From assembly GCA_947561715.1 (NCBI GenBank), contig OX387201.1, positions 15,142,001 through 15,206,000 on the forward strand: a stretch of 64,000 nucleotides of DNA, in the 5' to 3' direction. A program made the translations under genes and the position numbers. The stretch comes from Ascidia mentula. Lineage: Eukaryota > Chordata > Ascidiacea > Phlebobranchia > Ascidiidae. Shown here piece by piece: positions 5,595 to 51,147 of this stretch. Below the pieces are notes generated by a model, which did no database searches, had not been told where the DNA came from, and worked only from the letters and a program-made list of their open reading frames with translations. Position 1 is the first letter of the stretch. Every line of letters starts with the position of its first letter.

Positions 5595-8500
5595 TTACAC
5601 AATTTGAGTTTCGCACAGGGCTCCAGTAAACCCGTCCGCACATCCACAAACTCTTCCATCAACTTGATTATAACAAGTTCCTCCATTTTGACAAGCAGGC
5701 AGAAACTTTTCGGCACCTAAAAAATATCAAACATCACCATAGGCAGTAGTTTTAGTTACCGAAGAACATTTGATATCGCGTTGACGCTGGTTTGTCGTTT
5801 TTATACCGATTTTGTTTGTATTGTTTTATTTATTATTACATTAATAAACCATTTATACAACTGCAGTGTAGTCCCAACATCACATTTATTAGCGATGTTT
5901 TGATAGTTCATTACGAAAAGTAGATGAAAAATAACTTTTCGAGATGCCACTTATAAAGTTGCAGGTTATTTTCACATGTTGTATAGCCTTTCATTAATTA
6001 ACAAATGTAACAAATGCCTAAAGAAATCATATTTTCGACAAATTATAACCAAAAAGTACGCACTGAAGTGTGCCGTCCAATACAACTTTACTGTGGTTTG
6101 TCCCCAACCAGATTTCGTGATATCAGTGCGTTTTACTGCAGCCCGGAAGCCCCAAGGAAGCACTTCAAGGACAACAGCACTGAAAGTGTCGCTGTATATG
6201 CTCGAACCTCTCGCAGACACGCTCACGTTTGTTGCCACCGAGCTCATGCATCTGCTGTATGCCACATTGATGGATTTAGAGTAAGGGGGAACACGTGTGA
6301 GGGATCCGATCCTTTTTCTTCCATTTGTTCTGATAACTGGAGAATGTACAAATGTTTCCATGTTATTGTTTGTGATTGCAAAATATATATGTACAAAAAA
6401 ATCATGAGATCTCATGTTTTTGGCGATTTTCTGCGCTAAATTGAACTAAACAATTTTTGTATGTGATGGCATTGTTTTGATTTTTTATATATTTTCTTTA
6501 CTAAACAATAAATCGAAACTGTTGCCCTGTGTATACAGCTCCAAAAAAGGAATTGTTTTCCTACAATTAAAGACAAATTTTCGGTCCATTGCTTCAATAT
6601 TATTTGTTTGCAAAACATGTTGTAGAAGCATTCGAGGCACTACAACTCAACTTGCGTTATAAACTTTCCTAATTGGTGATATTTGATATGGTAACTTGCC
6701 TATTTCGCAGTTTGTTCCAACTCTGTCTTCGTTACATGTACAGTTATAACCGTTATCATACTCTGTACAAGAACTGCCACTTTGGCATGGGTTTGGGTAA
6801 CAATATAACATTGCTGTAAAAAACAGATAGTATTAAATATAAAAGGTATTTATTAATTCAGACTGAAAGAATCTGTATCATTGGGACGTATCTATCTAGG
6901 AAATTCTTGACTGAAATTATCCTTCAAAAATTTTCGTGACTAAAAATGAGGGACAGCATATGGTAAAGTAATCGTACCTGCTTCGCAAAATTCCCCCTTA
7001 AATCCTGGACGGCAATGACACTGTCTTCCATCAGCTGTATTTGTGCATCCAGTTGCATATATGCATGGGTCGCGAAGGTAAGCGCGCGTTTCTAAAACAG
7101 ACAATAGGAAGGATCAGTTGTGGTTGAGCTTAATGATTATTACGATTATTTTACTTGCATATGTCGAACTTATTTACGAAGGCAACATATCTATTTGTAA
7201 ATAAAACTACTTTTGGAGAGAATATAAAAATATAGCAAGTCAAAATACTGCAGTTTTGTCCTATGTGAAGGATTTCAGTTGCGGCACTTAATCAAATATA
7301 TAGATACTAGTGTCCGCAATCACTTGGATGTAAAATATTTACCAAATATGGCTCTGTATCGCATGTAGATGGTTTGGTCCCATCCTTCTCCGGGACGATC
7401 AGTCCTTTGTACGAGCGCTCGGAATCCCCAAGGATATATATCGAGAATGGTGTGATTAAAAGTATCGGAATAAGCTGTTGAGCCGGCAACAGTTGCGTTG
7501 ACCACATATGCAACACCAGTGTAACAACGGTCATAAACAACGGTGATGATTTTTCCGTATGGTGGCCCAGTGACAACTGGTAACGAAGGTATGTGCTCCA
7601 ACTTTCGAATGGCTGGTTCTAATCAAAACAAAAATTGTCGCAAATGGTGCAGTGATTCCTATTACATTTTTTTGTATTTGACGCAGAAATTTACCGCCAC
7701 GTATACTACATTATTTCGGGTTTGTGATGCAATGCTTGTTTCAAAATTTTGTTTCCACTTTTTGCAACAAATAGTATTAGTCATAATAATTTTAAGCTCT
7801 TACCAAATGCTGAATCACGCTATGAATCAATATATACTTCAATAGAGTTTGGATTACTTACCAACGTGGCATCTGTCTCCTGTGTAGGGTTCTGGACAAT
7901 TACACCTGAAGTAGCTGTGAGAGGGTACACAAGTTCCACCGTTCATACAAGGTGACGACGCGCAATGGGTTTGTCCTAAAAATGCGTGAAAAACACTTAA
8001 TTTTAAATTTAAAACTATTCGGAGGCGGTTTTACGTACGAGTTTCGCAATATCGTCCAGTTGTACGGATTCGACAATCGCAAATACTTCCATTCACAGCG
8101 TTAAGGCAAAACCCTCCGTTCTGACACGGGTTGAAAGAAAAGTTCACAGAATCTAAAACCAAATAGTTAAAAATAACCATTGTTTACTTGTTCCTGAACT
8201 TACTGAAATAAGATTCCACATTAAGGGCAACTGCCTCATAGAGTGGATTTGTTCCTTTGTTCTTTCTCCAAACTTTCACTTTGAAGCCCCAGCTGTAAGC
8301 TTCGTACACATTCACTCCGGCGTTTTGACCGTAACCACTTACACCCGTAGCATTTACTTCGTAAGGAGCTTCCCTCATGCAGGAGTTGTAGAGAATTACT
8401 GCGGTTGTACTCGATGCAGTTGTGTTTTCAAACGTAACGGGCGTGCGGTAAACATGGTAACCTGTGAAAATTGTTTGAGATTGATTTGTGCTGTTACTTT

Positions 8501-9486
8501 GTTGGAAAATAAATGTAAATAAAAAATAAATTCCTTAATGCCACCACTCAAGGAATCCAAACAGAAATTAAACAACAATGGAAAGTTGCATATAAAGAAA
8601 AGTGGTCAAATCCTAATGCACAAAATCAAGTGCTATAGATGTTGCAAAGTTGACTTCAATGCTTCTTAAACTACGAAAAAAGTAAATCCAACAATTGTTA
8701 CCTTTGTCACAGTTCTTTCCCCCAGTTTGCCCTGGACAGGAACATTGGTAATCGTTTTCAAGTTCGGTACAACTTCCCCCGTTGCATGGGTTCGGGTAGC
8801 AGTGAATCAAAGCTGATCAAGAATATTATTTATTACTAGCTACAGAAAAAGTTGCAAAAATTTTTTTCGAAACGTTTTGAAAGTATTGCAGGCATTTTAT
8901 TAATTTACTATATTGCAATTTTGTAGTGCTTTCATATACAGTAATCGAAATATTATCATCACAAATTAATTGACCATCCTTACTATACGCAATGTATTAG
9001 CTGACTTACGAGTTTTGCAGAACTCTCCGACAAACCGTTCAGTACAGTGACAAGTTTGTCCGTCCTCACTATTGGTGCAAAGTGCTCCATTTAAACAAGG
9101 GTTGTTTTCATAATCGTACGAATCTGAACATTAAAAGTTGTCGTTTTAATATTTAAGTGGCAAAATAATCTATCCATTATAAGTTACAAAAAGACAAAAT
9201 CAATAAACATTCTTACCAAAATAAGCCGTCCATTGCATTTCTACATCACTTTGTCCCCAATTAGTTTGGCGGATCCTCCGTACCATGGATCGAAATCCCC
9301 AAGCAAATATTTCGAGGATTTCGACTTCGAAAGTATCGGAGTATCTTGAAGCGCCACTAGCGGTCGCTGTGACCTCATTAGCAATCCCGCTATAGCAACG
9401 ATCGTAACTCACAACTATCTCTTTGCCAGGTTCGGACGAATATCTGTGAGATCCTACCCGTGCAGTACCTTGTATCCATGGCCCCT
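5595..9486 (-). other. Second 12-exon half of W/EGF gene A (exons 14-24)
   Basis: Exons 14-24 pair one-to-one with exons 2-12. W exons of 258 bp with the unusual SWGF motif and an NPxxE segment occur at exons 5 and 17. The HCASSPCM EGF is at exons 7 and 19, the CYPNPC or CFPNPC type at 4/16 and 10/22, RTTGRYCET at 6/18, and the GEFCE type at 9/21. The gene therefore arose by duplicating a block of four W-EGF-EGF triplets. The equivalent of exon 13 is missing because exon 24 carries the stop. Confidence 0.75.
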
Positions 9487-12400
9487 CTGGAAGAAAAACA
9501 CATTAAATATATTGGAAAGGAACCAACCCGCAGTCAGGAGAGACATGGTTACCGCAAAAAATTATGTTCATATTCAAAAATATTTCGTTATGTGGATTTA
9601 AATAAAAGATATGAAGAATAACAAAACTTGTCACAAGTTCTTACGGATATCGCAAGTTTTTCCTTTCCAGCCTTTCGGGCAATTGCATTCATAACCACCC
9701 GCCTGTTCAATACATTCACCTCTCTGGCATGGATTGGAAAGACAATGAACAAGTTCTAAAAATAGGATCGTAAATTCAAGTAACTTATGCGTAACATATT
9801 TAGTGCATTTAACGAAGTCAACGTAAACGAAAATTTACGTAGGTTGAGAAAAATGATCTGTATTAACCGTTAATAAAATGCAAGCAGTGTTTGAAATTTC
9901 ATGGCGTATTAATTCGAACTCACGTATTTCACAAAATCTTCCTGCGTACTCCGGTGAACAATCGCAAATACGTCCTTCCATGCTGTTGCGACAAGTTGCA
10001 CCATTTTGGCAAGACAACCACAAACTCGACTTTAAGTCTGTGGCATGAAAGTATTTCGCTTAGCTTCACGATATTCTAACACCAGTCCAAACAAATATAA
10101 TTGAAATTCTAAACAACATTTCTTACCAAAGACAGCTGTCCAGGATAGCTGAACCCGACTTTGACCCCAACCTTCTCTAGGTCTGTCGGTTCTTCGCACC
10201 ACAGCGGTAAAACCCCAAGGTTGGTTATCGGTGACGGTGGCGTTGAAAGTATCGCTGTATCGGCTTTCACCGGCCGCTGAAACGTCAACCCTGCTGATAT
10301 TTTTGTCCTGGCATTCATCGTAAACAACTTTGATGATTTTTGAATAGGGTTCCACTCTTTCCTGACTCCCCACTCGCACCGATCCACTCATGCTTATGAC
10401 TGTAAAATGATTTAGTACGTATCTGAAATGACGACTGATACACATTGGGAAAACTATTGAGCCAAATCGCCTCTATGCTAACAAAGCAGATATACTTTTT
10501 AATTGAATAAGGAGATTGTGTAAAAAGCGCTCCATAAAATATTTCGTTATGTTTATCTGCTATTTCATGAGCCAATGTACAATTCATTGCACAACCCATG
10601 TGAAACTCTTATCTGGTTTCTTGCTTACCTGTCTCGCAATGCTTGCCCGTCCTATTATTTGGACATGAGCAGTTGTATCCGTTTACATATTCCGTACAAA
10701 GGCCAGTGTTACAGGGATTGGGAAAACAGTAAACCATCGCTGAAAAATAAATTTTTGTGTTAACCGCAACATGCCATTGTGAGATTGTTTGAAAGCCTAT
10801 TTTTTCCAACCTGGAGTGTAAGTTTGTTTAGTATTTTCCCAAAAAAAGGCCTAGAGCTACAATTGGAAACAATTTGTGAAATTGCTCACCAAGTTCGCAA
10901 AACTCTCCTTTGTAGCCTGGATCACAGTGACAAACTCTTCCAGATTCAGCATTGTTTGTACAACTTGAAGAATGTAAACACGGGCTTTGTTTAAATGCCT
11001 GCGTTTCTAAACATAAACCTCTATGTTTGTTAAAGTAACGATACAGTGGTATTTCATGTACATGATTCAGATTTACAAGGGAAATAAACTTTTAAAACGT
11101 TCAAATTTACTTGGGTAATATGTAACTTACCAAAAATTATCGTGTATTTGAGATAAAGGGTCTGCCCCCATCCTTCACGACTATCAGTTCTCTGAATGAG
11201 TCCACGAAATCCCCAAGGGTATATTCCGAGCGTGGTGTAGTTGAATGTATCGAGATATAAACCTGATTTTACCACTGTGGCATTGACTGATAAAGCAAGA
11301 CCACTCAGACAGGTACCATAGACAATTTCAACCGTTTTTCCGTATGTGGGCGGTCTTGCTCTTCGCAGGCTTCCAACATAATAACGTGAACGTAGCCCTG
11401 GTTCTGAAGAAAGACAACAGCAGGTTGAGTCAGACAAGCGACCATGGTTAATAAACTAAGCAGGGCACATAAATACGTGCATACAATAGTACATTTGTAC
11501 AGTTTGTTTAGGGCGTGTGCAACCGATCTGCTTTCCATCAAAATGAATGTACTGCAGACTTCACTGTTGGTGGGCATTATTCTCATAGTGACTGAGTAGT
11601 AAGCTAGTCTTGTTTTTATTCATAACGTATTCTTTGTTCTTTTTGCCATACAGTCAAACAGATTATGTATGGTTTTGTTTGGTAGGGAGATTTTTGGTCA
11701 AACATGCTGTTGATTGGTGTGCTATGTCTATAAAACAACATTACCAAGTTCGCATCTATCTCCATCCCATCTTTCTGGACAAATGCATCGGAAGAAGTCA
11801 TTTTCAGGAATACAAGTTCCTCCGTGCATGCATGGCGATGACGCACAATGTGTAACGTCTTTAAATACAGAAAATGACATAAAACGAACAATTATCAACG
11901 ATCCTTACATAAAAATGTCAAAGTGCCACACAAAAACAAAACCAACCCGACATTACATGGCAATAATAAGTTCCACAAATTTTTGTTGGTGTTTATATTT
12001 TTTACAGTTCGTAGTTTAATCGAGGATTTACTGAGTATGCATTTGGCGCCCACACACTTCTCTGTATTGGAATAAACACATGAGAAATAAAAAATTGCTT
12101 ACGTGTTTCGCAGTATCTTCCTGTCGTTCGAACGGGACAAACACAGATTGATCCGTTTGCAGTGTTTTCACAAGTTCCGCCGTTTTGGCAAAGACTGCCT
12201 GGTGGGTTGAGAGTGTCTGCGTACGTAACATGTTTATCATGCGGTAAGTCGCAGACATAATATATAACAGAAATATTAAACGCTGCAGTTTGTGTCACAA
12301 CCCAACACACTGCCTTTTGTACGTACGTACAGCGAACCGTCAGAAAATACAATCTTTTTGGAACAAAAGGTGTACGTTTGTTATTTTTCACCAGAAGAAC

Positions 12401-14161
12401 GTCAGATTGGTAATTCATTATGATACCTGGTGGTCACAACCCATTTACAGTTTTCAAACTGCCATTTGCCGTTTATTGTCAAAGCTATGTCACATATTAG
12501 GTAAACTAGAAATTTTGGAATGTATTGTACTCATTTCGTCTTATACCGTATACTGCAATCCATTCAACTATCGCAGTTTCAAAACCAGGATTTGTTCCCA
12601 GATCATTCAATCTCCAAAATTTGGCTCTAAATCCCCAGCTGAAAACTTCCAACGCCTTTCCACCGACGTCACGTGACACATTTGATTTGACAGCGAGTCG
12701 AACTTCGGATGGCGAAACACTTTTGCACTCCGTGTACAGAATAGTTTTCGTCATGCTGTTTGTGCCCTCCTCAAATGCAACACTTAACACACCGTCGTAA
12801 TACGCTGCAGGAAAAAATACAAAGAATTAAATGTTTCCCTTTAATTGTATGAAAACATCTTGACACTGATTAGAGTAAGTTATGTTGTTTTTTGCTTAAT
12901 TTCAAGCCATGAGCACATGAGAATAACACTTGCCATTGTCGCACTTCTTCCCTGTTCTTCCAGGCCGACATGTACACTTGAAATCATCTGTAAGTTCTGT
13001 GCATTCGTCGTAATTACAGGGGTTCGGGTAACAATATACGTAACCTGAAATGCTTTGTAGGTTAACCAGCAGACATAGGTAATCTATACAATACAGCGCT
13101 TTGTGTGTGTGCGTTTCATTACGGAAAGAAAAGTTTCGTTTTTCTTTAAACGACACTTTGCTGATTCTGTTTTAAACCTGTTAGTTTGTGTGTATGTTAT
13201 TACGTGAAGAACAGGTCAGAATCTTCGTTCTTGGGTTAATGCAGACATTATGCACTATTGCCACATGCCGAATTTACTCGAATGCAAACGAGTTGCAAAG
13301 AAACTCCCCGAGCTCTTTGATGACTTCCTATTACAACAACTTCACCGTACTGTGTTGGCAGTATTTCCCATAGTTCTCTTGATTGCATGAGCAAGTCCTT
13401 CCATTCTCGCTGTTGTCGCATCTGGCTTCATTTTGACACGGATTATTATAGAATTCGGGAGTTTCTGTTGAAGAATGTGGTCGTTACATTTCTAGAATGT
13501 AATAACTTTGCACTGATGAAAAAGATCGAAATTTCCGATAACAATATTATTGGACAAGTACATGCAATGACTTTTACCTCCGACATACTTCTGCTGAAAC
13601 GAATTTGATACCAAGTTGTTTTATGAGCATTACAGGCAAAGACGCTATGCAACATTTTACCGTAAAAGGCTTTCCAGTTCATATAGACTCCTCTTTGTCC
13701 CCAATCATTTCTCTGTGCATCCGTCCGCTGAATAACAGCACGGAATCCCCACGATTGTATCTCAATTATTGCTGCAATAAAAGTGTCCGGCCATCTTGAT
13801 TTTCCGGTAACAACAGCAGTTATGTTTTTAGCTTCGCCAGTGTAGCATCGGTTGTACACAACAGTAATATTCTTGACATCCCCACGCCGATTGCTGCCAA
13901 CCTTTGTCCTGCCGCTGTGGTAATTCACGCCTAAAAATGCATTGAACAAGTGTAAATGTTAAACTGCTATGTTTTACAGTGTGTCGTTGTCAAAATATTT
14001 AATGATTAATGTGAAATGGTTGCAGACAATCGAGGTAACAATTTGATACGAATAACTGAAAATATCGACTATTCACTTTGATTGTTACAAAACTTACCAT
14101 TTTGAGTTACAGCCACTTGCAAAAATACAGAAGCAATAATTAGAATTCCAATCATTGCCAT
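5595..14161 (-). CDS. Secreted modular W/EGF protein, gene A (24 exons, ~1307 aa)
   Basis: Exons: 14161-14098, 13930-13661, 13464-13351, 13044-12934, 12804-12547, 12216-12103, 11858-11745, 11403-11131, 11006-10890, 10739-10629, 10399-10127, 10037-9924, 9755-9645, 9486-9217, 9123-9010, 8812-8702, 8461-8204, 8152-8039, 7975-7862, 7618-7343, 7091-6978, 6813-6700, 6336-6064, 5716-5595. Exon 1 is a signal peptide (MAMIGILIIASVF...). The rest is [W-EGF-EGF] x7 + W-EGF, one module per exon, all phase 1-1. The W domain (~88 aa; YxxC, DTF, WGF, WxQ, ending near FG) is unrecognised and has one cysteine. EGFs after W have five cysteines; second EGFs have six. There is no membrane segment and the protein ends CETQIV-stop, so it is extracellular. 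Donors after exons 4 and 22 are GC. Splice models follow consensus sites and phase; no transcript was seen. Confidence 0.87.
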
Positions 14162-14225
14162 AATCTGATTTGTTTCGGCTTCGTTTCGTGTTCGGCACTC
14201 TGAGTTGTCTCGCCCATTGGCAATG

Positions 14226-14232
14226 TTTTATA
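14226..14232 (-). promoter_or_regulatory. TATA box of W/EGF gene A
   Basis: TATAAAA on the minus strand, ~65 bp upstream of the ATG at 14161, which implies a very short 5' UTR. It is conserved at 42646-42652 and 51141-51147 in the other copies. Confidence 0.6.
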
Positions 14233-18480: not shown

Positions 18481-21400
18481 AGCTTGTGTACTGTTATCCA
18501 AACCCATGCAATGGTGGAGTGTGCTCAGAAGATGAAAGCGGTTATAATTGCGCATGCCCAGACGGAGCGACCGGACGCAATTGCTCAATCGGTAAGATGT
18601 TCACCTTTTGCCCCTTGTACAGTTTCCGTTCAAGCAGAACCCTTTAAAACAGCGGCACTGATCGGCAAAAGCTGAGCTTTTACCAACTTGGTTAAAGTTT
18701 TATTCTGCAAGTTGGTACTGTTTTTAGGTTACGCGACTGGACAAAAAAGTCTTAACATCAGCACTTGGGAGTCGGAGTCATTAAACATGAGTGTGACATA
18801 CGATTCTTGCAAAATTGAAAATGCTACCCATGTGGAATTATCCATTGATGGCGAAGTGTCTTCTTTGGTGCAAGTGAAACTTCAGAAAATATTTAATTGG
18901 GGTTTTGTAGTCATTTTATCAAAACGGACTGCTGTGAAAATAAACTGGAGTTTAATACCGATTCGACTCGAATGGAAAGCCCGCTTTGGTAAGATTTAGT
19001 TGTACCTCGATGGATGTGAATCAATACGACACAGAGTGTTTTTTGTAACAACTCAGTAACATTGATGGTGTTTTCCGCACCCAAGTCACTTTGTTTCTTG
19101 CAGGCAATATGCATACCGGTGGTAGTTTTTGAGTAAAAAATCATTCGTAATATTCCCTTTCTGCATCACTAGCAAAATCGTGTTTAGCAATATCTGTTGC
19201 TAGCAATTCTGTAAAGAAATAAAGATAGATGTGGTTTGTCGTTAATCGGTTTACAATTCCGACACATATTTTTTAGTCTGCAAAGAACGGAGGTTAGTTT
19301 CTGCAAGCGTACATACCGTTAAACCGTATTCTTAATTTTCCCGCAGAGTCATTATATTTTGAAAACAACTGCAATAACCAAGGAGTATGTATAAATACTG
19401 AAAATGGGACTGCATGTACATGTCAAGGACGTTACACTGGAAAATACTGCGAGACAGGTCAATTAGTCCCTATCCCATTGTGTTTTTATTTGTAGTTTTT
19501 GTCTTCTCGTGGTGTAATTTGAACGGCACATTTGTTATTAGTTCTCCCATATTGTCAAGGCAAGCCTTGTTTGAACAACGCAGTATGTGAGGACCTGTCT
19601 TATGGATATAAATGTTACTGTGCCCCGGGATTTGGTGGGGATAACTGTGAATATGGTATGTATGTGTTTGCGTTTCAAACAAACCCCCTGTTAATAGCGT
19701 TACATACTTTTTGTCACGATTTTCAGTTCAAAAAGTAATCCATTCAAAATAATTTGCACACCGTTCTAATACAGTTATTAAAATGTTTTCATTTCCACTA
19801 AATAAATCGACCCCGGACTTTGATAGCTTAAAATTAAAAATGATTTTTTTTGCATTTTCTCGGTATATATTTATTTGAATATTTATTATATAGCTCAAAT
19901 CAATTAACCTAAAATACTTTTAATTAAGGTAACTAAGTCATATCGTTTCGTTGCAAGGTGTCCATAGTGACATATTGCTGCTTCCGGCAGAAATGGATAG
20001 AACTTACACATACAAGTATGTCGTGTTCAATTCCTGTTACGTCGAAGAACCAATCCGTGTAGATTTGGAAGTGTTGAACCTGGGGAATTATCACCACTAT
20101 TTTTCCTCAAGGGTTTATCAAAAGTACCGAAACGGCTTTCATCTGGGTGTTTACAGAAATTATTACCGACCTGTCGTTCAAACCATAACTGAGTATCGAA
20201 TCCGCTACTCGGCAATTTTTGGTAAATAAACCGTCATCCTACTGCATGATTGCCAATTTTGGATCGAATTTCCTTCTAGAGAAAACTTGATTAGGTTTGT
20301 GATCAAATGGAAAACCGTTCGTGACTGAAAATCAAAATTTTGCTCCTATTTAAGAATAGTCTTTACATCTTTCATAGCATTTACCTTTGTGCATCTCGCA
20401 CTTACAAGTAATTTAATTAAGATTTCATCAGTGCAAATGTGTATCGCAGCGTCGACAAACTTTACCGACAATCCCTGCAAAAACAATGCTGAATGCACTG
20501 TTACAAACAGGGATGACTTTTTCTGCAACTGTACTAAACCATTCCGTGGTCAACTTTGCCAAAAGAGTAAGTTTTTCTGCACTTTGAAACGGTTGCTCAC
20601 TTTTTCAGCAATTCATTTTGTCCAGAGATAATTAAATGCTCATCACGACCGTGCCGAAACGGTGGTACATGCAACGACACGGAAATAGGTTACAGGTGCA
20701 CGTGCAAAGATGGTTATAAAGGATCGCATTGTGCACAAGGTAAATGGGTTGGTATAGAAAATACAATATTTGTATTTATGTGATAGTGTGTCGCGAAATC
20801 ATGTTCACATCACAAACAAGTGAAACCAAACATGTTTCGGCTCATTTTAGTTTGCCATGAGTTCTTGCAAATAGGTTGATTAGTCACCAAATATCGACAA
20901 CGCATTATAACACACCAATTAGCATGATAAGTTATACACCACTGTCAATTAAAGTTCATCAAACTTAAAAAAAATTGCATTTAATTGCATTAAAAAACAA
21001 ATGAATGTTTTAAATTTTTCAAGTGTTTAAGGTTCGGATTTGTCAACAGGGAGCGTCTAATAACCTGTGAATTAACATTTCTACGTTGCGATTCACGCGT
21101 CTCTAAAAATGGGTACTAACGTAAATAAAGGTCAACGACAATCACCGTAAAAAAATTTAAAATTTGGGATGTTTTAAAAAAATATAAGCATTGTAAAAAA
21201 AAAATTTCAAACCTGTTTTTACGTTATTGATATTTACAAACTGTGTAAAAGCTTAAAAATAACGCGTCTGGTCATTTTTTTCTTTAGTTCGATTTACCGG
21301 AAATTATTCATTGGAAATAAAATCGGGTCGGGTTGCCTCAACAACAGTTAATGTTGTTTACGACGACTGCCATAACCGATTGGCGAAGGAGATCCAGGCG

Positions 21401-22237
21401 GAAGCTTTCATCAACAAATCTGCCAACTTGTTTTTAAATGTGGAAAATGTTCAAGTCCAACCGTGGGGATTCACCGCTGCTGTTCGACGAAAAGATGGCC
21501 GAAGTAGTTGGGGCACATACAGGATATATATCAATTACATTGCATGGTTTGGTGAGTATTTTGTTTTTGCGGAGGTCCTCAATTGATCAATTTTTAGGCA
21601 AGATTTGTTGGCACTTGCGCGGAATAGTATTTCTAAAAAAAAATTGAGGGAAAAACATCTAGAAATGAAATATGCGTCTATCACAACAACATATCCGCAC
21701 TTATTTTATTTGAACTGATTTTCACATTTAAAAACTGCTCTTGGTATTACTAGACGATAGAAGTACCCAGAGTGAGATGTGCTATAATGGTGGAAGATGT
21801 GAAAACGTATTAAATGGACCCATCTGCCATTGTAAACCTGGATTTATAGGAAGGCAGTGCAAAAAAGGTAAATGGCCAAACACAATAAATCAAATTCTCA
21901 CCAAAATTTAAACCCATGTTTGTTAAATTGCTACAAGCTAATTGTGTACTTTAGTTGACCATTGCCTGAGCAATCCATGTTACAACGGTGGAAAATGTCA
22001 AAATGATGAAAAAACTGGATTTACATGTGAATGTCTTGATGGATTTGTTGGAGTCAAATGTTCTGTTGGTTAGTTTTTTACTGAAGGAATCACATCAACG
22101 ATGTCTTAAATCGTTCTGTTCCAAACGCACATTGTCTCACAAGGTTGTATTTTTTTACAGATGTAGCTGCTTTGAAAAAATCATCATATTCCTCTGACAC
22201 GATTGACGTCGACAAATCGAAAGATATGCTTTATTAA
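18481..22237 (+). CDS. W/EGF protein, plus-strand paralogue A (5' end not found)
   Basis: Exons: 18481-18591 EGF, 18728-18988 W, 19347-19457 EGF, 19542-19655 EGF, 19958-20221 W, 20450-20566 EGF, 20626-20739 EGF, 21288-21551 W, 21754-21867 EGF, 21955-22068 EGF, 22161-22237 tail. All are phase 1-1 and give about 553 aa. The same rule holds as in the minus-strand gene: W has one cysteine, the next EGF five, the second EGF six. The second W (19958) keeps its cysteine but has lost WGF. The protein ends in a 25-residue charged tail ([12 protein letters not shown]...KDMLY) without a membrane segment. The first visible exon is a second-type EGF, so a W, an EGF and a signal peptide should precede it; none is seen upstream. 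The gene is either 5'-truncated or has distant exons. Confidence 0.78.
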
Positions 22238-34008: not shown

Positions 34009-37000
34009 TTACACAATTTGCGTTTCGCACAGGGCTCCAGTAAACCCGTCCGCACATCCACAAACTCTTCCATCAACTTGATTGTAGCAAGTTCCTCCAT
34101 TTTGACAAGCAGGTAGAAACTTTTCGGCACCTAAAAAATATCAAAGATCACCATAGGCAGTAGTTTTAGTTACCGAAGAACATTTGATATCGCGTTGACG
34201 CTGATTTGTCGTTTTTATAACGATTTTGTTTGTATTGTTTTATTTATTATCACATTAATAAACCATTTATACAACTGCAGTGTAGTCCCAACATCACATT
34301 TATTAGCGATGTTTTGATAGTTCATTACGAAAAGAGATGCCACTTATAAAGTTGCAGGATATTTTCACATGTTGTATAGCCTTTCATTAATTAACAAAAG
34401 TAACAAATGCCTAAACAAACCATATTTTCGACAAATTATAACCAAAAAGTACGCACTGAAGTGTGCCGTCCAATACAACTTCACTGTGGTTTGGCCCCAA
34501 CCAGATTTCGTGATATCAGTGCGTTTTACTGCAGCCCGGAAGCCCCAAGGAAACACTTCAAGGACGACTGCAGTGAAAGTGTCGCTGTATGTGGTCGAAC
34601 CTCTCGCAGACACGCTCACGTTTGTTGCCACCGAGCTCATGCATCTGCTGTATGCCACATCGATGGATTTAGAGTAAGGGGGAACGCGTGTGAGGGAACC
34701 GATCCTTTTTCTTCCATTTGTTCTGATAACTGGAGAATGTACAAATGTTTTCATGTTATTGTTTGTGATTTTAAAGTATATATGTACACCAAAATAATGA
34801 GATCACATGTTTTTGGCGATTTTCTGCACTAAATTGAACTAAACAATTTTTTTATGTGATGGCATTGTTTTGATTTTTTACATATTTTCTTTACTAAACA
34901 ATAAGTCGAAACTGTTGCCCTGTGTATGCAGCTCAAATAAAGGAATTGTTTTCCTTCAATTAAAGACAAATCTTAGGTCCATTGCTTCAACATTATTTGT
35001 TTGCAAAACATGTTGTAGAAGCATTCGAGGCACTACAACTCAACTTACGTAATAAACTTTCCTAATTGGTGATATTTGATATGATAACTTGCCTATTTCG
35101 CAGTTTCTTCCAACTCTGTCTTCGTTACATGTACAGTTATAACCGCTATCATATTCCGTGCAAGAACTGCCACTCTGGCATGGGTTTGGGTAACAATATA
35201 ACATTGCTGTAAAAAACAGATAGTATTAAATATAAAAGGTATTTATTAATTCAGACTGAAAGAATCTGTATCATTAGGACATATTTTTCTAGTAAATTCT
35301 TAAATGAAATTATCTTTCGAAAATTTTCGTGACTAAAAATGAGAGGCAGCATATGGTAAAGTAATCGTACCTGCTTCGCAAAATTCCCCCTTAAATCCTG
35401 GACGACAATGACACTGTCTTCCATCAGCTGTGTTTGTGCATCCAGTTGCATATATACATGTGTCGCGAAGGTAAGCGCGCGTTTCTGAAACAGACAGTAG
35501 GAAAAGTCAGTTGTGGTTGAGCTTAATGATTATTACGATTATTTTACTTGCATATGCCGAACTTATTTGCGAAGGCAACATATCTATTTGTAAATAAAAC
35601 TACTTTTGGAGAGAATATAAAAATATAGCAAGTCAAAATACTGCAGTTTTGTCCTATGTGAAGGATTTCAGTTGCGGCACTTAATCAAATATATAGATAC
35701 TAGTGTCCGCAATCACTTGGATGTAAAATATTTACCAAATATGGCTCTGTATCGCATGTAGATGGTTTGGTCCCATCCTTCTCCGGGACGATCAGTCCTC
35801 TGTACGAGCGCTCGGAATCCCCAAGGATAGATATCGAGAATGGTGTGGTTGAAAGTATCGGAATAAGCTGTTGAGCCGGCAACAGTTGCGTTGACCACAT
35901 ATGCAACACCAGTGTAACAACGGTCATAAACAACTGTGATGATTTTTCCGTATGGTGGCCCAGTGACAACTGGTAACGAAGGTATGTGCTCCAACTTTCG
36001 AATGGCTGGTTCTAATCAAAACAAAAATTGTCGCAAATGGTGCAGTGATTCCTATTACATTTTTTTGTATTTGACGCAGAAATTTACCGCCACGTATACT
36101 ACATTATTTCGGGTTTGTGATGCAATGCTTGTTTCAAAATTTTGTTTCCACTTTTTGCAACAAATAGTATTAGTCATAATAATTTTAAGCTCTTACCAAA
36201 TGCTGAATCACGCTATGAATCAATATATACTTCAATAGAGTTTGGATTACTTACCAACGTGGCATCTGTCTCCTGTGTAGGGTTCTGGACAATTACACCT
36301 GAAGTAGCTGTAAGAGGGTACACAAGTTCCACCGTTCATACAAGGTGACGACGCGCAATGGGTTTGTCCTAAAAATGCGTGAAAAACACTTAATTTTAAA
36401 TTTAAAACTATTCGGAGGCGGTTTTACGTACGAGTTTCGCAATATCGTCCAGTTGTACGGATTCGACAATCGCAAATACTTCCATTCACAGCGTTAAGGC
36501 AAAACCCTCCGTTCTGACACGGGTTGAAAGAAAAGTTCACAGAATCTAAAACCAAATAGTTAAAAATAACCATTGTTTACTTGTTCCTGAACTTACTGAA
36601 ATAAGATTCCACATTAAGGGCAACTGCCTCATAGAGTGGATTTGTTCCTTTGTTCTTTCTCCAAACTTTCACTTTGAAGCCCCAGCTGTAAGCTTCGTAC
36701 ACATTCACTCCGGCGTTTTGACCGTAACCACTTACACCCGTAGCATTTACTTCGTAAGGAGCTTCCCTCATGCAGGAGTTGTAGAGAATTACTGCGGTTG
36801 TACTCGATGCAGTTGTGTTTTCAAACGTAACGGGCGTGCGGTAAACATGGTAACCTGTGAAAATTGTTTGAGATTGATTTGTGCTGTTACTTTGTTGGAA
36901 AATAAATGTAAATAAAAAATAAATTCCTTAATGCCACCACTCAAGGAATCCAAACAGAAATTAAACAACAATGGAAAGTTGCATATAAAGAAAAGTGGTC

Positions 37001-40000
37001 AAATCCTAATGCACAAAATCAAGTGCTATAGATGTTGCAAAGTTGACTTCAATGCTTCTTAAACTACGAAAAAAGTAAATCCGACAATTGTTACCTTTGT
37101 CACAGTTCTTTCCCCCAGTTTGCCCTGGACAGGAACATTGGTAATCGTTTTCAAGTTCGGTACAACTTCCCCCGTTGCATGGGTTCGGGTAGCAGTGAAT
37201 CAAAGCTGATCAAGAATATTATTTATTACCAGCTACAGAAAAAGTTGCAAAAAATTTTTTAGAAACGTTTTCAAAGTATTGCAGGCATTTTAGAAATTTA
37301 CTATATTGCAATTTTGTAGTGCTTACATATACAGTAATCGAAATATTATCATCACAAATTAATTGACCATCCTTACTATACGCAATGTATTAGCTGACTT
37401 ACGAGTTTTGCAGAACTCTCCGACAAACCGTTCAGTACAGTGACAAGTTTGTCCGTCCTCACTATTGGTGCAAAGTGCTCCATTTAAACAAGGGTTGCTT
37501 TCATAATCGTACGAATCTGAACATTAAAAGTTGTCGTTTTAATATTTAAGTGGCAAAATAATCTATCCATTATAAGTTCCAAAAAGACAAAATCAATAAA
37601 CATTCTTACCAAAATAAGCCGTCCATTGCATTTCTACATCATTTTGTCCCCAATTAGTTTCGTGGCTCCTCCGTACCATGGATCGAAATCCCCAAGCAAA
37701 TATTTCGAGGATTTCGACTTCGAAAGTATCGGAGTATCTTGAAGCGCCACTAGCGGTCGCTGTGACCTCATTAGCAACCCCGCTATAGCAACGATCGTAA
37801 CTCACAACCATCTCTTTGCCAGGTTCGGACGAATATCTGTGAGACCCTACCCGTGCAGTACCTTGTATCCATGGCCCCTCTGGAAGAAAATAATATTGGA
37901 AAGGAACCAACCCGCAGTCAGGGGAGACATGGTTACCGCAAAAAAATATGTTCATATTCAAAAGTATTTTGTTTTGGTTTTCAATATAATGAAGCAAAGA
38001 TATGAAGAATAATAAAACTTGTCACAAGTTCTTACGGATATTGCAAGTTTTTCCTTTCCAGCCTTTCGGGCAATTGCATTCATAACCACCCGCCTGTTCA
38101 ATACATTCACCTCTCTGGCATGGGTTAGAAAGACAATGAACAAGTCCTAAAAATAGGCGCGTAAATTTAAGTAAATTATGCTTAACATCTTCAGGCAATA
38201 CATTTAACGAAGTCAACGTAAACGAAAATTTCAATTGGTTGAGAAAAATGATCTGTTTTATACTAAACCGTTAATAAAATGCAAGCAGTGTTTGAAATTT
38301 CATGACGTATTAATTCGAACTCACGTATTTCACAAAATCTTCCTGTGTACTCCGGTGAACAATCGCAAATACGTCCTTCCATGCTGTTGCGACAAGTTGC
38401 ACCATTTTGACAAGACAACTCCAAACTCGACTTTAAGTCTGTGGCATGAAGGTTTTTCGCTTAGCTTCACGATATTCTAACACCAGTCCAAACAAATATA
38501 ATTGAAATTCTAAACAACATTTCTTACCAAAGACAGCTGTCCAGGATAGCTGAACCCGACTTTGACCCCAACCTTCTCTAGGTCTGTCGGTTCTTCGCAC
38601 CACGGCGGTAAAACCCCAAGGTTGGTTGTCGGTGACGGTGGCGCTGAAAGTATCGCTGTATAGGCTCTCACCGGCCGCTGAAACTTCCACCCTGCTGATA
38701 TTTTTGTCCTGACATTCATCGTAAACAACTTTGATGATTTTTGAATAGGGTTCTACTCTTTCCTGACTCCCCACTCGCACAGATCCACTCATGCTTATGA
38801 CTGTAAAATGATTTAGTACGTATCTTAAATGACGACTGATACACATTGGGAAAACTATTGAGCCAAATCGCCTCTATGCTAACAAAGCAGAATTCATTTT
38901 TAATTCAATAAGGAGATTGTGTAAAAAGCGCTCCATAAAATATTTCATTATGTTTATCTGCTATTTCATGAGCCAATGTACAATTCATTGCACAACCCAT
39001 GTGAAACTCTTATCTGGTTTCTTGCTTACCTGTCTCGCAATGCTTGCCCGTCCTATTATTTGGACATGAGCAGTTGTATCCGTTTACATATTCCGTACAA
39101 ACGCCAGTGTTACAGGGATTGGGAAAACAGTAAACCATCGCTGAAAAATAAATTTTTGTGTTAACCGCAACATGCCATTGTGAGATTGTTTGAAAGCCTA
39201 TTTTTTTCCAACCTGGAGTGTAAGTTTGTTTAGTATTTTCCTATTTAAGGCCTAGAGCTCCAATTGGAAACAATTTGTGAAATTGCTCACCAAGTTCGCA
39301 AAACTCTCCTTTGTAGCCTGGATCACAGTGACAAACTCTTCCAGATTCGGCATTGTTTGTACAACTTGAAGAATGTAAACACGGGCTTTGTTTAAATGCC
39401 TGCGTTTCTAAACATAAACCTCTATGTTTGTTAAAGTTACAATACAGTGGTATTTCATGTACATGATTCAGATTTACAAGGGAAATAAACTTTTAAAACG
39501 TTCAAATTTACGTGGGTAATATGTAACTTACCAAAAAGTATCGTGTATTTGAGATAAAGGGTCTGCCCCCATCCTTCACGACTATCAGTTCTCTGAATGA
39601 GTCCACGAAATCCCCAAGGGTATATTCCGAGCGTGGTGTAGTTGAATGTATCGAGATATAAACCTGATTTTACCACTGTGGCATTGACTGATAAAGCAAG
39701 ACCACTCAGGCAGGTACCATAGACAATTTCAACCGTTTTTCCGTATGTGGGCGGTCTTGCTCTTCGCAGGCTTCCGACATAATAACGTGAACGCATTCCG
39801 GGTTCTGAAAAAAGACCAAAGCGGCAGGTTGAGTCAGACAAGCGACCATGGTTAATAAACTAAGCAGGGCACATGAATACGTGCACACAGTTGTACATCT
39901 GTACAGTTTGTTTATGTCGTGTACAATCGGTCTGCTTTCCATCAAAATTAATGTACTGCAGACTTCACTGCTGGTAGGCGTTATTCTCTTAGCGCTGGAG

Positions 40001-42581
40001 TAGTAAGCTAGTCTTGTTTGTATTCATAACGTATTCTTTGTTCTTTTTGCCATACAGTCAAACAGATTATGTGTGGTTTTGTTTGGTAGCGAGATTTTTG
40101 ATCAAATATGCTGTTGATTGGTGTGTTATGTCTATAAAACAACATTACCAAGTTCACATCTATCTCCATCCCATCTTTCTGGACAAATGCATCGGAAGAA
40201 GTCATTTTCAGGAATGCAAGTTCCTCCGTGCATGCATGGCGATGACGCACAATGTGTAACGTCTTTAAATACAAAAAAAATGACATAAAACGAACAATTA
40301 TCAACGATCCTTACATAAAAATGTGCCAAACAAAAAACAAAACCAACCCGACATTTCATGGCAATAATTAGTTCTACAAATTTTTGTTGGTGTATATATT
40401 TGTTGTAGTTCGTAGTTTAATCGAGAATTTACTGAGTATGCATTTGGCGCCCACACAGTTCTCTGTATTGGAATAAACACATGAGAAACAAAAAAATGCT
40501 TACGTGTTTCGCAGTATCTTCCTGTCGTTCGAACTGGACAAACACAGATTGATCCGTTGGCAGTGTTTTCACAAGTTCCACCGTTTTGGCAAAGACTGCC
40601 TGGTGGGTTGAGAGTGTCTGCGTACATAACATGTTTATCATGCGGTAAGTCACACGCATGATATATAACAGAAATATTGAACGCAGAGTTATGCATTACA
40701 ATCCAACGCACTGACTTTCACCGTTGATTGTCAAAGCTATGTCACATATTAGGTAAACTACAAATTTTGGATTGTATTGTACACATATCGTCTTACCGTA
40801 TACTGCAATCCATTCAACTATCGCAGTTTCAAAACCAGGATTTGTTCCCAGATCATTCAATCTCCAAAATTTGGCTCTAAATCCCCAGCTGAAAACTTCC
40901 AACGCCTTTCCACCGACGTCACGTGACACATTTGATTTGACAGCGAGTCGAACTTCGGATGGCGAAACACTTTTGCACTCCGTGTACAGAATAGTTTTCG
41001 TCATGCTGTTTGTGCCCTCTTCGAATGCAACACTTAACACACCGTCGTAATACGCTGCAGGAAACAATACAAAGAATTAAGTGTTTCCTTTTATATGAAA
41101 TGAAAACATTTTGACACTGATTAGAGTAAGTTCTGTTGTTTTTTTGCTTAATTTCAAGCCATGAGCAACTGAGAATAACACTTGCCATTGTCGCACTTCT
41201 TCCCCGTTCTTCCAGGCCGACATGTACACTTGAAATCATCTGTAAGTTCTGTGCATTCGTCGTAATTGCAGGGGTTCGGGTAACAATATACATAACCTGA
41301 AATGCTTTGTAGGTTAACCAGCAGACCATAGGTAATCTATACAATACAATGCTTTGTGTGGGTGGGTGGGTGGGTGGGTGTTTTTACGGAAAGAAAAATT
41401 TCGTTTTTCTTTAAACGACACCTTGCTGATCCTGTTTTAAAGCTATTAGTTTGTGTGTATGTTATTACGTGAAGAACAGGTCAGAATCTTCGTTCTTGGG
41501 TTAATGCAGACATTATGCACTATTGCGACTTGCCGAATTTACTCGAATGCAAACGAGTTGCAAAGAAACTCCCCGAGCTCTTTGATGACTTCCTATTACA
41601 ACAACTTCACCGTACTGTGTTGGCAGTATTTCCCGTAGTTCTCTGGATTGCATGAGCAAGTCCTTCCATTCTCGCTGTTGTCGCATCTGGCTTCATTTTG
41701 ACACGGATTATTATAGAATTCGGGAGTTTCTGTTGAAGAATGTGGTCGTTACATTTCTAGAATGTAATAACTTTGCACTGATGAAAAAGATCAAAATTTC
41801 CGATGAAAAAACAATAAACAACACCGGATCGGTGAACCAAGCCACCCTGGTAGGCTGTCGATCGATACCGTATCTGTATAGCTGAGTAAAACTTTTAAGT
41901 CAATGTCTCAGACGGCTCTTTTAAAGATGTTTTTATTTTTTTAAATTTCCGATTACAATATTATTGGACAAGTACATGCAATGACTTTTACCTCCGACAT
42001 ACTTCTGCTGAAACGAATTTGATACCAAGTTGTTTTATGAGCATTACAGGCAAAGACGCTATGCAATATTTTACCGTAGAAAGCTTTCCAGTTCATATTT
42101 ACTCCTCTTTGTCCCCAATCATTTCTCTGTGCATCCGTCCGCTGAATAACAGCACGGAATCCCCACGGTTGTATCTCAATTATTGCTGCAATAAAAGTGT
42201 CCGGCCATCTTGATTTTCCGGTAACAACAGCAGTTATGTTTTTTGCTTCGCCAGTGTAGCATCGGTTGTACACAACAGTAATATTCTTGACGTCGCCACG
42301 CCGATTACTGCCAACGTTTGTCCTGCCGCTGTGATAATTCACGCCTAAAAATGCATTGAACAAGTGTAAATATTAAACTGCTCTTTTTTTGAATTACAGT
42401 GTGTCGTTGTCAAAATATTTAATGATTAATGTGAAATGGTCGCAGCCAATCGAGGTAACAATTTGGTACGAATAACTGAAAATATCGACTAATCACTTTG
42501 ATTCTTACAAAACTTACCATTTTGAGTTACAGCCACTTGCAAAAATGCAGAAGCAATAATCAGAACTCCAATCATTGCCAT
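34009..42581 (-). CDS. Secreted modular W/EGF protein, gene B (24 exons, ~1307 aa)
   Basis: Exons: 42581-42518, 42344-42075, 41729-41616, 41296-41186, 41054-40797, 40617-40504, 40262-40149, 39804-39532, 39407-39291, 39140-39030, 38800-38528, 38438-38325, 38146-38036, 37879-37610, 37516-37403, 37205-37095, 36854-36597, 36545-36432, 36368-36255, 36011-35736, 35484-35371, 35206-35093, 34729-34457, 34130-34009. Every exon has the same length as in gene A. Both GC donors (after exons 4 and 22) and all W/EGF cysteines are kept, so it looks functional. Amino-acid changes cluster in W exons 11, 14 and 23. Exons 16-20 and their introns are nearly identical to gene A. The second intron carries a 139-bp insertion. 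Upstream lies a piggyBac element and then a half copy of the same gene reading towards it. Confidence 0.86.
41358..41380. repeat. Microsatellite (GGGT)n
   Basis: About five GGGT units in intron 3 of gene B, where gene A has a short GT run. A typical slippage expansion. Confidence 0.7.
41795..41953. mobile_element. Short insertion with 10-bp target duplication in intron 2 of gene B
   Basis: The 139 bp at 41805-41943 are absent from copies A and C. They are flanked by two copies of AATTTCCGAT (41795-41804 and 41944-41953), which occurs once at the empty site near 13529. One end is A-rich (GAAAAAACAATAAACAAC), the other T-rich. Size and target duplication suit a SINE or other short non-autonomous element. 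No definite tRNA-like promoter boxes were identified. Confidence 0.6.
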
Positions 42582-42645
42582 AATCTGATTTGTTTCGGCT
42601 ACGTTTCGTGTTCGGCACTGTGAGTTGTCTCGCCCATTGGCAATG

Positions 42646-42652
42646 TTTTATA
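42646..42652 (-). promoter_or_regulatory. TATA box of W/EGF gene B
   Basis: TATAAAA on the minus strand 65 bp upstream of the ATG at 42581. Confidence 0.6.
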
Positions 42653-43291
42653 CTTTGCTTGTCCGTTACGCACGAATGGTGCAAGACTGCATTTTTTTCA
42701 TTATTTGAAAACTTCTTTTCCCTCACGTATCTTGCGCAACGCCGAAATGCGTGGGCTGCTGGTCTCATTACAACAGATCGTGCAATGGTAAGTTCAAACA
42801 AAGTTCGCCCGACTTTGTGTATTGATTTCTTATTTCATTTGATTTCCAATATCATTTGCTATTTATATACAATGGTGTTTATCGGAATAATTCAGTTCAA
42901 TTTGCAACACCAATTACTTTTCGACACTACAGCAGCTTCACATATCTGATAATATATTTTTTATACCTGTAACGCTTGTTTGTTTTGTTTCGATTGTTTT
43001 TGTTTCAAACAATTTCCTAATCCAAGCAGAACTGTTAACGTGGTGCCAAACATTCAGCGCACGCATTTCACAGACATGCTGTCATGATGCCCTGAGGCTG
43101 TATCGAGCTTGTACATTTACCGACTGCGTGGGTGTCTATTGCTAATGTTGAGCACACACGTTTTGTAATAACGTACTTCAGAAGTTCGGCGAAATCTGGA
43201 TTTTTTAAATTTCAACAACAAACAGAAACCCAGGAACACAACTCACGGGTTTTCTCATAATTCTGAGTATAAAGGGAATCAAACATGACTA

Positions 43292-46338: not shown

Positions 46339-46450
46339 CACTGTCATGTTTGAAAGAAGACGTTTCGGCACTTATGCCATCACAAAATTATGCTACACCA
46401 ATCGCGTCATTCAAACTGATGATTGCATAAGTTTTTGCCGAAACGTCTTC
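46339..46450. mobile_element. Foldback repeat interrupted by piggyBac and cut at a duplication junction
   Basis: The inner part of the foldback seen whole at 51766-51959. It contains a hammerhead-like core on the plus strand, CTGATGA ... GAAACGTC (46416-46447). Its right arm ends abruptly at 46450, where copy C begins (intron 13 sequence, equivalent to 9536), with 2-bp microhomology (TC). Confidence 0.7.
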
Positions 46451-46559
46451 AGGAGAGACATGGTTACCGCAAAAAATTATGTTCATATTCAAAAATATTT
46501 CGTTATGTGGATTTAAATAAAAGATATGAAGAATAACAAAACTTGTCACAAGTTCTTAC

Positions 46560-49500
46560 GGATATCGCAAGTTTTTCCTTTCCAGCCTTTCGGGCAATTG
46601 CATTCATAACCACCCGCCTGTTCAATACATTCACCTCTCTGGCATGGATTGGAAAGACAATGAACAAGTTCTAAAAATAGGATCGTAAATTCAAGTAACT
46701 TATGCGTAACATATTTAGTGCATTTAACGAAGTCAACGTAAACGAAAATTTACGTAGGTTGAGAAAAATGATCTGTATTAACCGTTAATAAAATGCAAGC
46801 AGTGTTTGAAATTTCATGGCGTATTAATTCGAACTCACGTATTTCACAAAATCTTCCTGCGTACTCCGGTGAACAATCGCAAATACGTCCTTCCATGCTG
46901 TTGCGACAAGTTGCACCATTTTGGCAAGACAACCACAAACTCGACTTTAAGTCTGTGGCATGAAAGTATTTCGCTTAGCTTCACGATATTCTAACACCAG
47001 TCCAAACAAATATAATTGAAATTCTAAACAACATTTCTTACCAAAGACAGCTGTCCAGGATAGCTGAACCCGACTTTGACCCCAACCTTCTCTAGGTCTG
47101 TCGGTTCTTCGCACCACAGCGGTAAAACCCCAAGGTTGGTTATCGGTGACGGTGGCGTTGAAAGTATCGCTGTATCGGCTTTCACCGGCCGCTGAAACGT
47201 CAACCCTGCTGATATTTTTGTCCTGGCATTCATCGTAAACAACTTTGATGATTTTTGAATAGGGTTCCACTCTTTCCTGACTCCCCACTCGCACCGATCC
47301 ACTCATGCTTATGACTGTAAAATGATTTAGTACGTATCTGAAATGACGACTGATACACATTGGGAAAACTATTGAGCCAAATCGCCTCTATGCTAACAAA
47401 GCAGATATACTTTTTAATTGAATAAGGAGATTGTGTAAAAAGCGCTCCATAAAATATTTCGTTATGTTTATCTGCTATTTCATGAGCCAATGTACAATTC
47501 ATTGCACAACCCATGTGAAACTCTTATCTGGTTTCTTGCTTACCTGTCTCGCAATGCTTGCCCGTCCTATTATTTGGACATGAGCAGTTGTATCCGTTTA
47601 CATATTCCGTACAAAGGCCAGTGTTACAGGGATTGGGAAAACAGTAAACCATCGCTGAAAAATAAATTTTTGTGTTAACCGCAACATGCCATTGTGAGAT
47701 TGTTTGAAAGCCTATTTTTTCCAACCTGGAGTGTAAGTTTGTTTAGTATTTTCCCAAAAAAAGGCCTAGAGCTACAATTGGAAACAATTTGTGAAATTGC
47801 TCACCAAGTTCGCAAAACTCTCCTTTGTAGCCTGGATCACAGTGACAAACTCTTCCAGATTCAGCATTGTTTGTACAACTTGAAGAATGTAAACACGGGC
47901 TTTGTTTAAATGCCTGCGTTTCTAAACATAAACCTCTATGTTTGTTAAAGTAACGATACAGTGGTATTTCATGTACATGATTCAGATTTACAAGGGAAAT
48001 AAACTTTTAAAACGTTCAAATTTACTTGGGTAATATGTAACTTACCAAAAATTATCGTGTATTTGAGATAAAGGGTCTGCCCCCATCCTTCACGACTATC
48101 AGTTCTCTGAATGAGTCCACGAAATCCCCAAGGGTATATTCCGAGCGTGGTGTAGTTGAATGTATCGAGATATAAACCTGATTTTACCACTGTGGCATTG
48201 ACTGATAAAGCAAGACCACTCAGACAGGTACCATAGACAATTTCAACCGTTTTTCCGTATGTGGGCGGTCTTGCTCTTCGCAGGCTTCCAACATAATAAC
48301 GTGAACGTAGCCCTGGTTCTGAAGAAAGACAACAGCAGGTTGAGTCAGACAAGCGACCATGGTTAATAAACTAAGCAGGGCACATAAATACGTGCATACA
48401 ATAGTACATTTGTACAGTTTGTTTAGGGCGTGTGCAACCGATCTGCTTTCCATCAAAATGAATGTACTGCAGACTTCACTGTTGGTGGGCATTATTCTCA
48501 TAGTGACTGAGTAGTAAGCTAGTCTTGTTTTTATTCATAACGTATTCTTTGTTCTTTTTGCCATACAGTCAAACAGATTATGTATGGTTTTGTTTGGTAG
48601 GGAGATTTTTGGTCAAACATGCTGTTGATTGGTGTGCTATGTCTATAAAACAACATTACCAAGTTCGCATCTATCTCCATCCCATCTTTCTGGACAAATG
48701 CATCGGAAGAAGTCATTTTCAGGAATACAAGTTCCTCCGTGCATGCATGGCGATGACGCACAATGTGTAACGTCTTTAAATACAGAAAATGACATAAAAC
48801 GAACAATTATCAACGATCCTTACATAAAAATGTCAAAGTGCCACACAAAAACAAAACCAACCCGACATTACATGGCAATAATAAGTTCCACAAATTTTTG
48901 TTGGTGTTTATATTTTTTACAGTTCGTAGTTTAATCGAGGATTTACTGAGTATGCATTTGGCGCCCACACACTTCTCTGTATTGGAATAAACACATGAGA
49001 AATAAAAAATTGCTTACGTGTTTCGCAGTAGCTTCCTGTCGTTCGAACGGGACAAACACAGATTGATCCGTTTGCAGTGTTTTCACAAGTTCCGCCGTTT
49101 TGGCAAAGACTGCCTGGTGGGTTGAGAGTGTCTGCGTACGTAACATGTTTATCATGCGGTAAGTCGCAGACATAATATATAACAGAAATATTAAACGCTG
49201 CAGTTTGTGTCACAACCCAACACACTGCCTTTTGTACGTACGTACAGCGAACCGTCAGAAAATACAATCTTTTTGGAACAAAAGGTGTACGTTTGTTATT
49301 TTTCACCAGAAGAACGTCAGATTGGTAATTCATTATGATACCTGGTGGTCACAACCCATTTACAGTTTTCAAACTGCCATTTGCCGTTTATTGTCAAAGC
49401 TATGTCACATATTAGGTAAACTAGAAATTTTGGAATGTATTGTACTCATTTCGTCTTATACCGTATACTGCAATCCATTCAACTATCGCAGTTTCAAAAC

Positions 49501-51076: not shown

Positions 51077-51140
51077 AATCTGATTTGTTTCGGCTTCGTT
51101 TCGTGTTCGGCACTCTGAGTTGTCTCGCCCATTGGCAATG

Positions 51141-51147
51141 TTTTATA
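51141..51147 (-). promoter_or_regulatory. TATA box of W/EGF copy C
   Basis: TATAAAA 65 bp upstream of the ATG at 51076, same context as gene A. Confidence 0.6.

Follow-up and report, generated by a model that had tools for sequence, protein, structure and literature searches.

The stretch analysed here, called the window throughout, is a segment of 64,000 nucleotides from the genome of the ascidian Ascidia mentula (C69:15142001-15206000). It contains genes on both strands in which EGF domains are combined with a second domain, which we call W, of about 90 residues and encoded by one phase-1 exon. The minus-strand gene at 5595..14161, spliced exon by exon, reads as 24 exons from 14161 down to 5595 and gives a protein of 1307 residues with a single terminal stop. 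Its introns are all in phase 1, and the internal exons are each divisible by three. A signal-peptide-like exon is followed by seven repeats of W, a five-cysteine EGF (EGF5) and a six-cysteine EGF (EGF6), and then by a last W, EGF5 and the stop. Two introns of this gene start with GC instead of GT (at the exons ending at 12934 and 6700).

An earlier note on this DNA had proposed that W carries exactly one cysteine, that the EGF directly after it carries five, and that an EGF not preceded by W carries six. Counted exon by exon in the minus-strand gene, there is one cysteine in 8/8 W, five in 8/8 EGFs after W, and six in 7/7 EGFs not after W. Two candidate readings were rejected in the course of this count: the apparent seventh cysteine of the EGF match at 8691 falls in an intron, the exon itself holding six, and for the EGF after the second W an acceptor 18 bases further downstream was dropped, the chosen one giving the usual 114-base exon and a nine-residue junction.

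A profile hidden Markov model (HMM) scan of the whole window returned 26 full-length W matches, distributed over two minus-strand copies (8 + 8), a truncated third one (4) and two plus-strand copies (3 + 3). Each of them has one cysteine, and the next downstream EGF match has five in 26/26. Two broken relics of W were also recorded, at 23965 (one cysteine) and 60588 (none). The proposal for the remaining EGFs describes the minus-strand gene correctly but is too strict as worded, since a plus-strand EGF at 54856 that does not follow a W has seven cysteines. Between minus-strand copies 1 and 2 the ratio of nonsynonymous to synonymous differences (pN/pS) is 0.18 for W, 0.12 for EGF5 and 0.11 for EGF6, and these low values indicate that the proteins are under purifying selection.

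The cysteine rule across the genome

The genome comprises 195.8 Mb in 79 contigs. Queried with a single W, it yielded 143 matches at E ≤ 1, which lie on C69, C71, C67, C52, C73 and C2. W and EGF domains were scanned in the window and in 66 of 85 loci, and the genome-wide counts refer to this set. The C2 match lies outside it, and the 19 loci left out either overlap scanned ones (L058, L061-L068) or had been brought in by the Pfam family H_lectin (L069-L078). The counts are of matches and not of independent events, many tandem copies being nearly identical.

One cysteine in W together with five in the next EGF was found in 119/136 W matches. Of the remaining 17, nine are one-cysteine W behind which no further domain lies in reach (fragments, W at locus edges and both W of C73), and two are complete W with two cysteines and five in the next EGF (L081:4215 and L079:2045). 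Four more are cysteine-less fragments or relics, followed by a three-cysteine EGF fragment in two cases, by a five-cysteine EGF in one and by nothing in one. The last two, on C67 and C52, have three cysteines; the usual column lacks its cysteine, which stands two columns on, and two more occur at W4 positions 3 and 61. A Ca-type EGF that seemed to follow the W of C52 and C67 was discarded, the HMM having skipped the true next exon, which is again a five-cysteine EGF according to an assignment made by cysteine spacing alone in two of five such loci.

A six-cysteine EGF behind a W cysteine, which the earlier note named as a refuting case, was looked for and was not seen after any complete W among the 136 matches in the scanned loci of this genome. 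The expectation that a one-cysteine W is always followed by a five-cysteine EGF is borne out by the 119 matches and fails for the two W of C73, which lack a following EGF. At one locus on C71 (L083) W-EGF5 occurs three times without a six-cysteine EGF in between; this makes W plus EGF5 the unit, with W rather than EGF6 as the partner of EGF5.

Identity of the lost cysteine

Cysteine positions were tabulated for distinct complete EGFs of at least 30 residues on C69 and C71. The missing cysteine is the first (C1), as had been claimed: C1 is present in 0/68 EGFs after W versus 80/84 EGFs not after W. C2-C6 are present in 68/68 EGFs after W, which depart from the standard six-cysteine set by the missing C1 in every case. 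A Fisher test of the C1 contrast gives p = 1.5e-41, a value that counts related copies as if they were independent and should not be taken as a true probability. At the aligned position of the lost C1, 43/68 EGFs after W have Phe or Tyr, a residue that perhaps packs at the W-EGF interface. The one five-cysteine EGF sent to Pfam (window 12002-12433) matched PF00008 with 23.6 bits (cut-off 21.5).

Among the 84 EGFs not after W, six cysteines were counted in 77, seven in four, five in two and two in one. The two with five cysteines were considered as exceptions and rejected. The W belonging to the first lies at C69:15098900, just outside the fetched DNA. The second, at L079:9622, has no visible W, and a cryptic W-like exon was therefore sought and was found upstream, at L079:9217. 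This exon has the motif FPEC and scores 12.5 bits against the W profile (best of 1000 shuffles, 8.0), and its model, with a predicted local distance difference test (pLDDT) score of 71.5, has five strands at places similar to those of W. Thus, the rule led to the prediction of a domain that the profile scan had missed.

The junction between the two domains, from the last aromatic residue of W to C2 of the EGF, measures 8-11 residues in 86/94 pairs when the acceptor is picked by pyrimidine content. The same range holds for 54/54 pairs with a single candidate acceptor, the length being exactly 9 in 39.

The W domain

Conservation was assessed in 50 diverse W (51 were kept below 85% identity), which single-linkage clustering at 40% identity divides into 27 groups and whose mean column identity is 30%. 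The W cysteine occupies the second most conserved column (48/50), after Phe63 and level with Gly62. An AlphaFold model of the W4 domain (10128-10397; pLDDT 96) is a six-stranded beta-sandwich that resembles H-type lectins, and W is predicted to have a divergent H-type-lectin-like fold, which had not been recognised in the earlier note. The closest H-type lectins by modelled fold appear to be the Helix pomatia and Helix aspersa agglutinins (2ccv, 4q56), the C-terminal domain of discoidin I/II (2w94, 2vme) and SLL-2 (3wmp). Cys29 of the model stands in the loop just after strand 2 (19-25), and strand 6 (83-89) is directly followed by the start of the EGF. In the H-type lectin sandwich the strands all alternate in direction (all-antiparallel); if those of W do so as well, Cys29 and the start of the EGF should lie at the same pole of the domain.

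Pfam H_lectin (PF09458) did not match any of ten W- or EGF-bearing frames at E ≤ 10, and the other Pfam families gave only sub-threshold chance matches to W and no PSI match. A genome search with PF09458 returned 13 weak matches below the cut-off, none of them at a W. They lie elsewhere in the genome and gave the ten loci L069-L078, on C72, C52, C67 and C69, six of which were scanned for W and EGF and contained neither. Against PDB, the W sequences gave one chance match and the W profile none. In protein searches outside this genome, which rely on exact five-residue words and length windows and could let distant W relatives escape, an 11-row W alignment drew 111 candidates, none at E ≤ 0.01, and ten concatenated W domains (876 residues) drew the 7993 candidates that shared most words, none at E ≤ 0.1. 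A search with the full-length protein gave 522 matches; the 120 of the 522 that were listed are EGF proteins by their given names and Pfam lists, and a W-profile scan of these 120 found no W (best E 0.26). On these sequence comparisons the W family appears to be lineage-restricted.

Discussion

In ordinary EGFs the cysteines pair 1-3, 2-4 and 5-6, so that C1 normally bonds C3. Loss of C1 would leave C3 without a mate, the single cysteine of W being the one unpaired candidate in the domain beside it, and the earlier note suggested that the W cysteine replaces C1 through an inter-domain disulfide. Our results favor this suggestion. The loss of C1 from EGF5, the near-constant junction and the predicted topology of W make an intrachain disulfide between the W cysteine and C3, with W-EGF5 as one unit, the best explanation and in our judgement a rather likely one; the loss of C1 and the constancy of the junction are observed, and the bond we infer from them and from the model. 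The W cysteine would stand in for C1 and bond C3 across the domain boundary within the same chain, the 2-4 and 5-6 bonds of EGF5 would form as usual, and W and EGF5 would become one rigid two-domain unit spread over two exons. The six-cysteine EGFs could then serve as spacers between such units, and eight units would give what may be a secreted multivalent rod with eight lectin-like heads, probably binding ligands or glycans.

However, this interpretation should be viewed with some caution, since several observations weigh against it. The two W on C73 (L082, C73:5360001-5365000) carry the usual cysteine, but the region behind them, although it contains cysteines, is not EGF and gave no EGF match, so the W cysteine is not always provided with an EGF partner. 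The lower of these copies is one base shorter than its neighbour close to where W starts. In this lower copy W and the two exons after it, as read by eye, have 1+3+5 cysteines, an odd total that could mean a bond between chains. The extra cysteine in the complete W at L081:4215 and L079:2045 has no evident partner, and the model of the cryptic W-like exon is weak, with its pLDDT of 71.5 and five strands. The same-pole argument holds only if the alternation of strands known from H-type lectins applies to W. Moreover, the nearest non-close neighbour of an EGF5 is another EGF5 in 57/68 cases; since the EGF5 mostly resemble each other, C1 may have been lost only once or a few times.

The odd cysteine total on C73 leads to an alternative that we regard as unlikely, namely that the bond of the W cysteine runs to a second chain, either to its W cysteine or to an EGF C3, and that the proteins form disulfide-linked oligomers. 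H-type lectins are known as trimers with a site for N-acetylgalactosamine, and the snail agglutinin has interchain disulfides. Furthermore, the unpaired thiol of a five-cysteine EGF in NOTCH3 has been proposed as a driver of oligomerisation, according to the accessible part of that report (PMC10318516). Oligomers would, however, require neither a five-cysteine EGF as the immediate next domain, nor that the lost cysteine be C1, the partner of C3, nor a near-constant junction, and it is improbable that eight cysteines per chain would all bond to other chains in register.

Since all that is established is how many cysteines there are and which one is lost, the intrachain inter-domain bond might also exist in another form, with the pairing inside the EGF reshuffled and the W cysteine bonded to a cysteine other than C3. 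The C1-C3 pairing is textbook knowledge, and the retention of C2-C6 and their surroundings in 68/68 EGFs after W allows the 2-4 and 5-6 bonds to form, leaving C3. A departure from the ordinary EGF pattern has been described for integrin I-EGF domains (1-5, 2-4, 3-6, 7-8; accessible part of PMC12383024), and we nonetheless give a reshuffled pairing little chance. Highly improbable, finally, is that a W-EGF5 cassette with two unpaired cysteines arose once and was copied as a unit by inertia, without any bond: the grouping of EGF5 with EGF5 in 57/68 and the many recent tandem duplicates would fit such a history, but only the Phe63 column is more conserved than that of the W cysteine, although the domain has drifted to a mean identity of about 30%, C1 is kept in 80/84 EGFs not after W, pN/pS between the copies is low, and free thiols are harmful in NOTCH3 EGFs according to the part of PMC10318516 accessible to us.

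The disulfide from the W cysteine to C3 thus preferred is not wholly without parallel. The earlier note's statement that no described domain pair follows such a rule was too strong, since in integrin beta3 cysteine C13 of the PSI domain bonds the first cysteine of EGF1, C435 (PMC12383024, accessible part). In both cases the cysteine of another domain bonds, or in W-EGF5 would bond, an EGF cysteine that is otherwise paired inside the EGF. Unlike W, the integrin PSI is distant from EGF1 in the chain, its EGF, an I-EGF, retains the first cysteine, and the arrangement occurs once per protein and not as a repeated pair of neighbours with a lost C1. W, moreover, does not appear to be a PSI domain: it holds a single cysteine, Pfam finds no PSI in it, and its predicted fold is another. 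The gastropod HREP proteins, as described in the accessible part of PMC8878817, combine immunoglobulin and H-type lectin domains and are similar in that an H-type lectin domain is joined to another extracellular module; that module is immunoglobulin instead of EGF, and the same part of the report mentions no cysteine rule. Tandem EGFs on phase-1 exons are shared with Notch, Crumbs, Jagged and fibropellin, which are the best full-length matches among the 120 of 522 listed; in EGF proteins of this type the disulfides lie within the domain, and these 120 matches contain no W. A literature search that covered few subscription journals found no fusion of an H-type lectin with EGF and no C1-less EGF with a partner in a neighbouring domain. 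Since bonds between an EGF cysteine and a second domain are already known, the novelty would seem to lie in the repeated two-exon combination with a divergent H-type-lectin-like domain.

Extracellular modules are usually viewed as self-contained, with disulfides inside each domain. In LDLR, folding involves disulfides only within the individual modules (PMC4500599, accessible part), and in NOTCH3 an unpaired EGF thiol has been proposed to drive disease (PMC10318516, accessible part). Consequently, a stable five-cysteine EGF would be unusual unless it were partnered. We lean, if only slightly, towards a wider view in which W and its C1-less EGF form a disulfide-closed supermodule over two exons, such that in this lineage a single-exon, phase-1 W cannot move, vanish or duplicate without its EGF partner, and a five-cysteine EGF predicts a W even where the sequence no longer shows it. 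If this is true, exon shuffling would be clearly restricted by an obligate disulfide between neighbouring modules on separate exons, and the same bond could stiffen a multivalent rod of lectin-like heads. In addition, a missing EGF C1 is a simple sequence flag for hidden partner domains, and W would, on its predicted structure, extend the H-type lectin fold by a divergent family that appears to be restricted to this lineage.

Other features of the window

The exons of the minus-strand gene and the other copies are listed in Table 1. The near-identity of the third minus-strand copy to part of the first is due either to a very recent duplication or to an assembly artefact.

Table 1. Positions of the W-EGF genes, exons and copies in the window
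Feature	Position	Strand	Basis or remark
Whole gene, 24 exons, 1307 residues	5595..14161	-	spliced reading
Exon 1, signal-peptide-like start MAMIGILIIASVFLQVAVTQN...	14098..14161	-	
W1, 1 Cys	13661..13930	-	
EGF after W1, 5 Cys	13351..13464	-	C1 absent
EGF, 6 Cys	12934..13044	-	GC donor
W2, 1 Cys	12547..12804	-	
EGF after W2, 5 Cys	12103..12216	-	114-base exon
EGF, 6 Cys	11745..11858	-	
W3, 1 Cys	11131..11403	-	
EGF after W3, 5 Cys	10890..11006	-	
EGF, 6 Cys	10629..10739	-	
W4, 1 Cys	10127..10399	-	modelled part 10128-10397 with Cys29
EGF after W4, 5 Cys	9924..10037	-	
EGF, 6 Cys	9645..9755	-	
W5, 1 Cys	9217..9486	-	
EGF after W5, 5 Cys	9010..9123	-	
EGF, 6 Cys	8702..8812	-	
W6, 1 Cys	8204..8461	-	
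EGF after W6, 5 Cys	8039..8152	-	
EGF, 6 Cys	7862..7975	-	
W7, 1 Cys	7343..7618	-	
EGF after W7, 5 Cys	6978..7091	-	
EGF, 6 Cys	6700..6813	-	GC donor
W8, 1 Cys	6064..6336	-	
EGF after W8, 5 Cys and stop codon	5595..5716	-	
Plus-strand gene: EGF6, W, EGF5, EGF6, W, EGF5, EGF6, W, EGF5, EGF6	18483..22067	+	HMM scan; known from domain matches only
W in plus-strand gene	18730-18987, 19984-20220, 21293-21550	+	HMM scan
EGF5 in plus-strand gene	19349-19456, 20452-20565, 21762-21866	+	HMM scan
Second minus-strand copy, 8 W each followed by a 5-Cys EGF	34009..42818	-	DNA-match bounds; about 96% identical to first
Third minus-strand copy, truncated (W1-W4)	46449..51315	-	4867 bases, 99.98% identical to 9534-14400
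Second plus-strand copy with three W-EGF5 pairs	54856..58471	+	HMM scan

Near the plus-strand genes lie inverted remnants of W and EGF exons (23642-24077 and 60020-60700, plus strand) that share 79-83% identity with part of the minus-strand gene. A transposase-like open frame (44066-45766, plus strand), situated immediately below the point where the truncated third copy ends, matches PF13843 (DDE_Tnp_1_7), and we take it to be of the piggyBac type. An Rfam search of the window gave no match. An open frame of 1083 residues (24947-28198, minus strand) combines LDL-receptor class A repeats with a rhodopsin-type seven-transmembrane region. Two further, nearly identical open frames on the minus strand (47-442 and 28411-28806) contain a stretch resembling an LDL-receptor class A repeat, which in 47-442 falls just below the Pfam cut-off.

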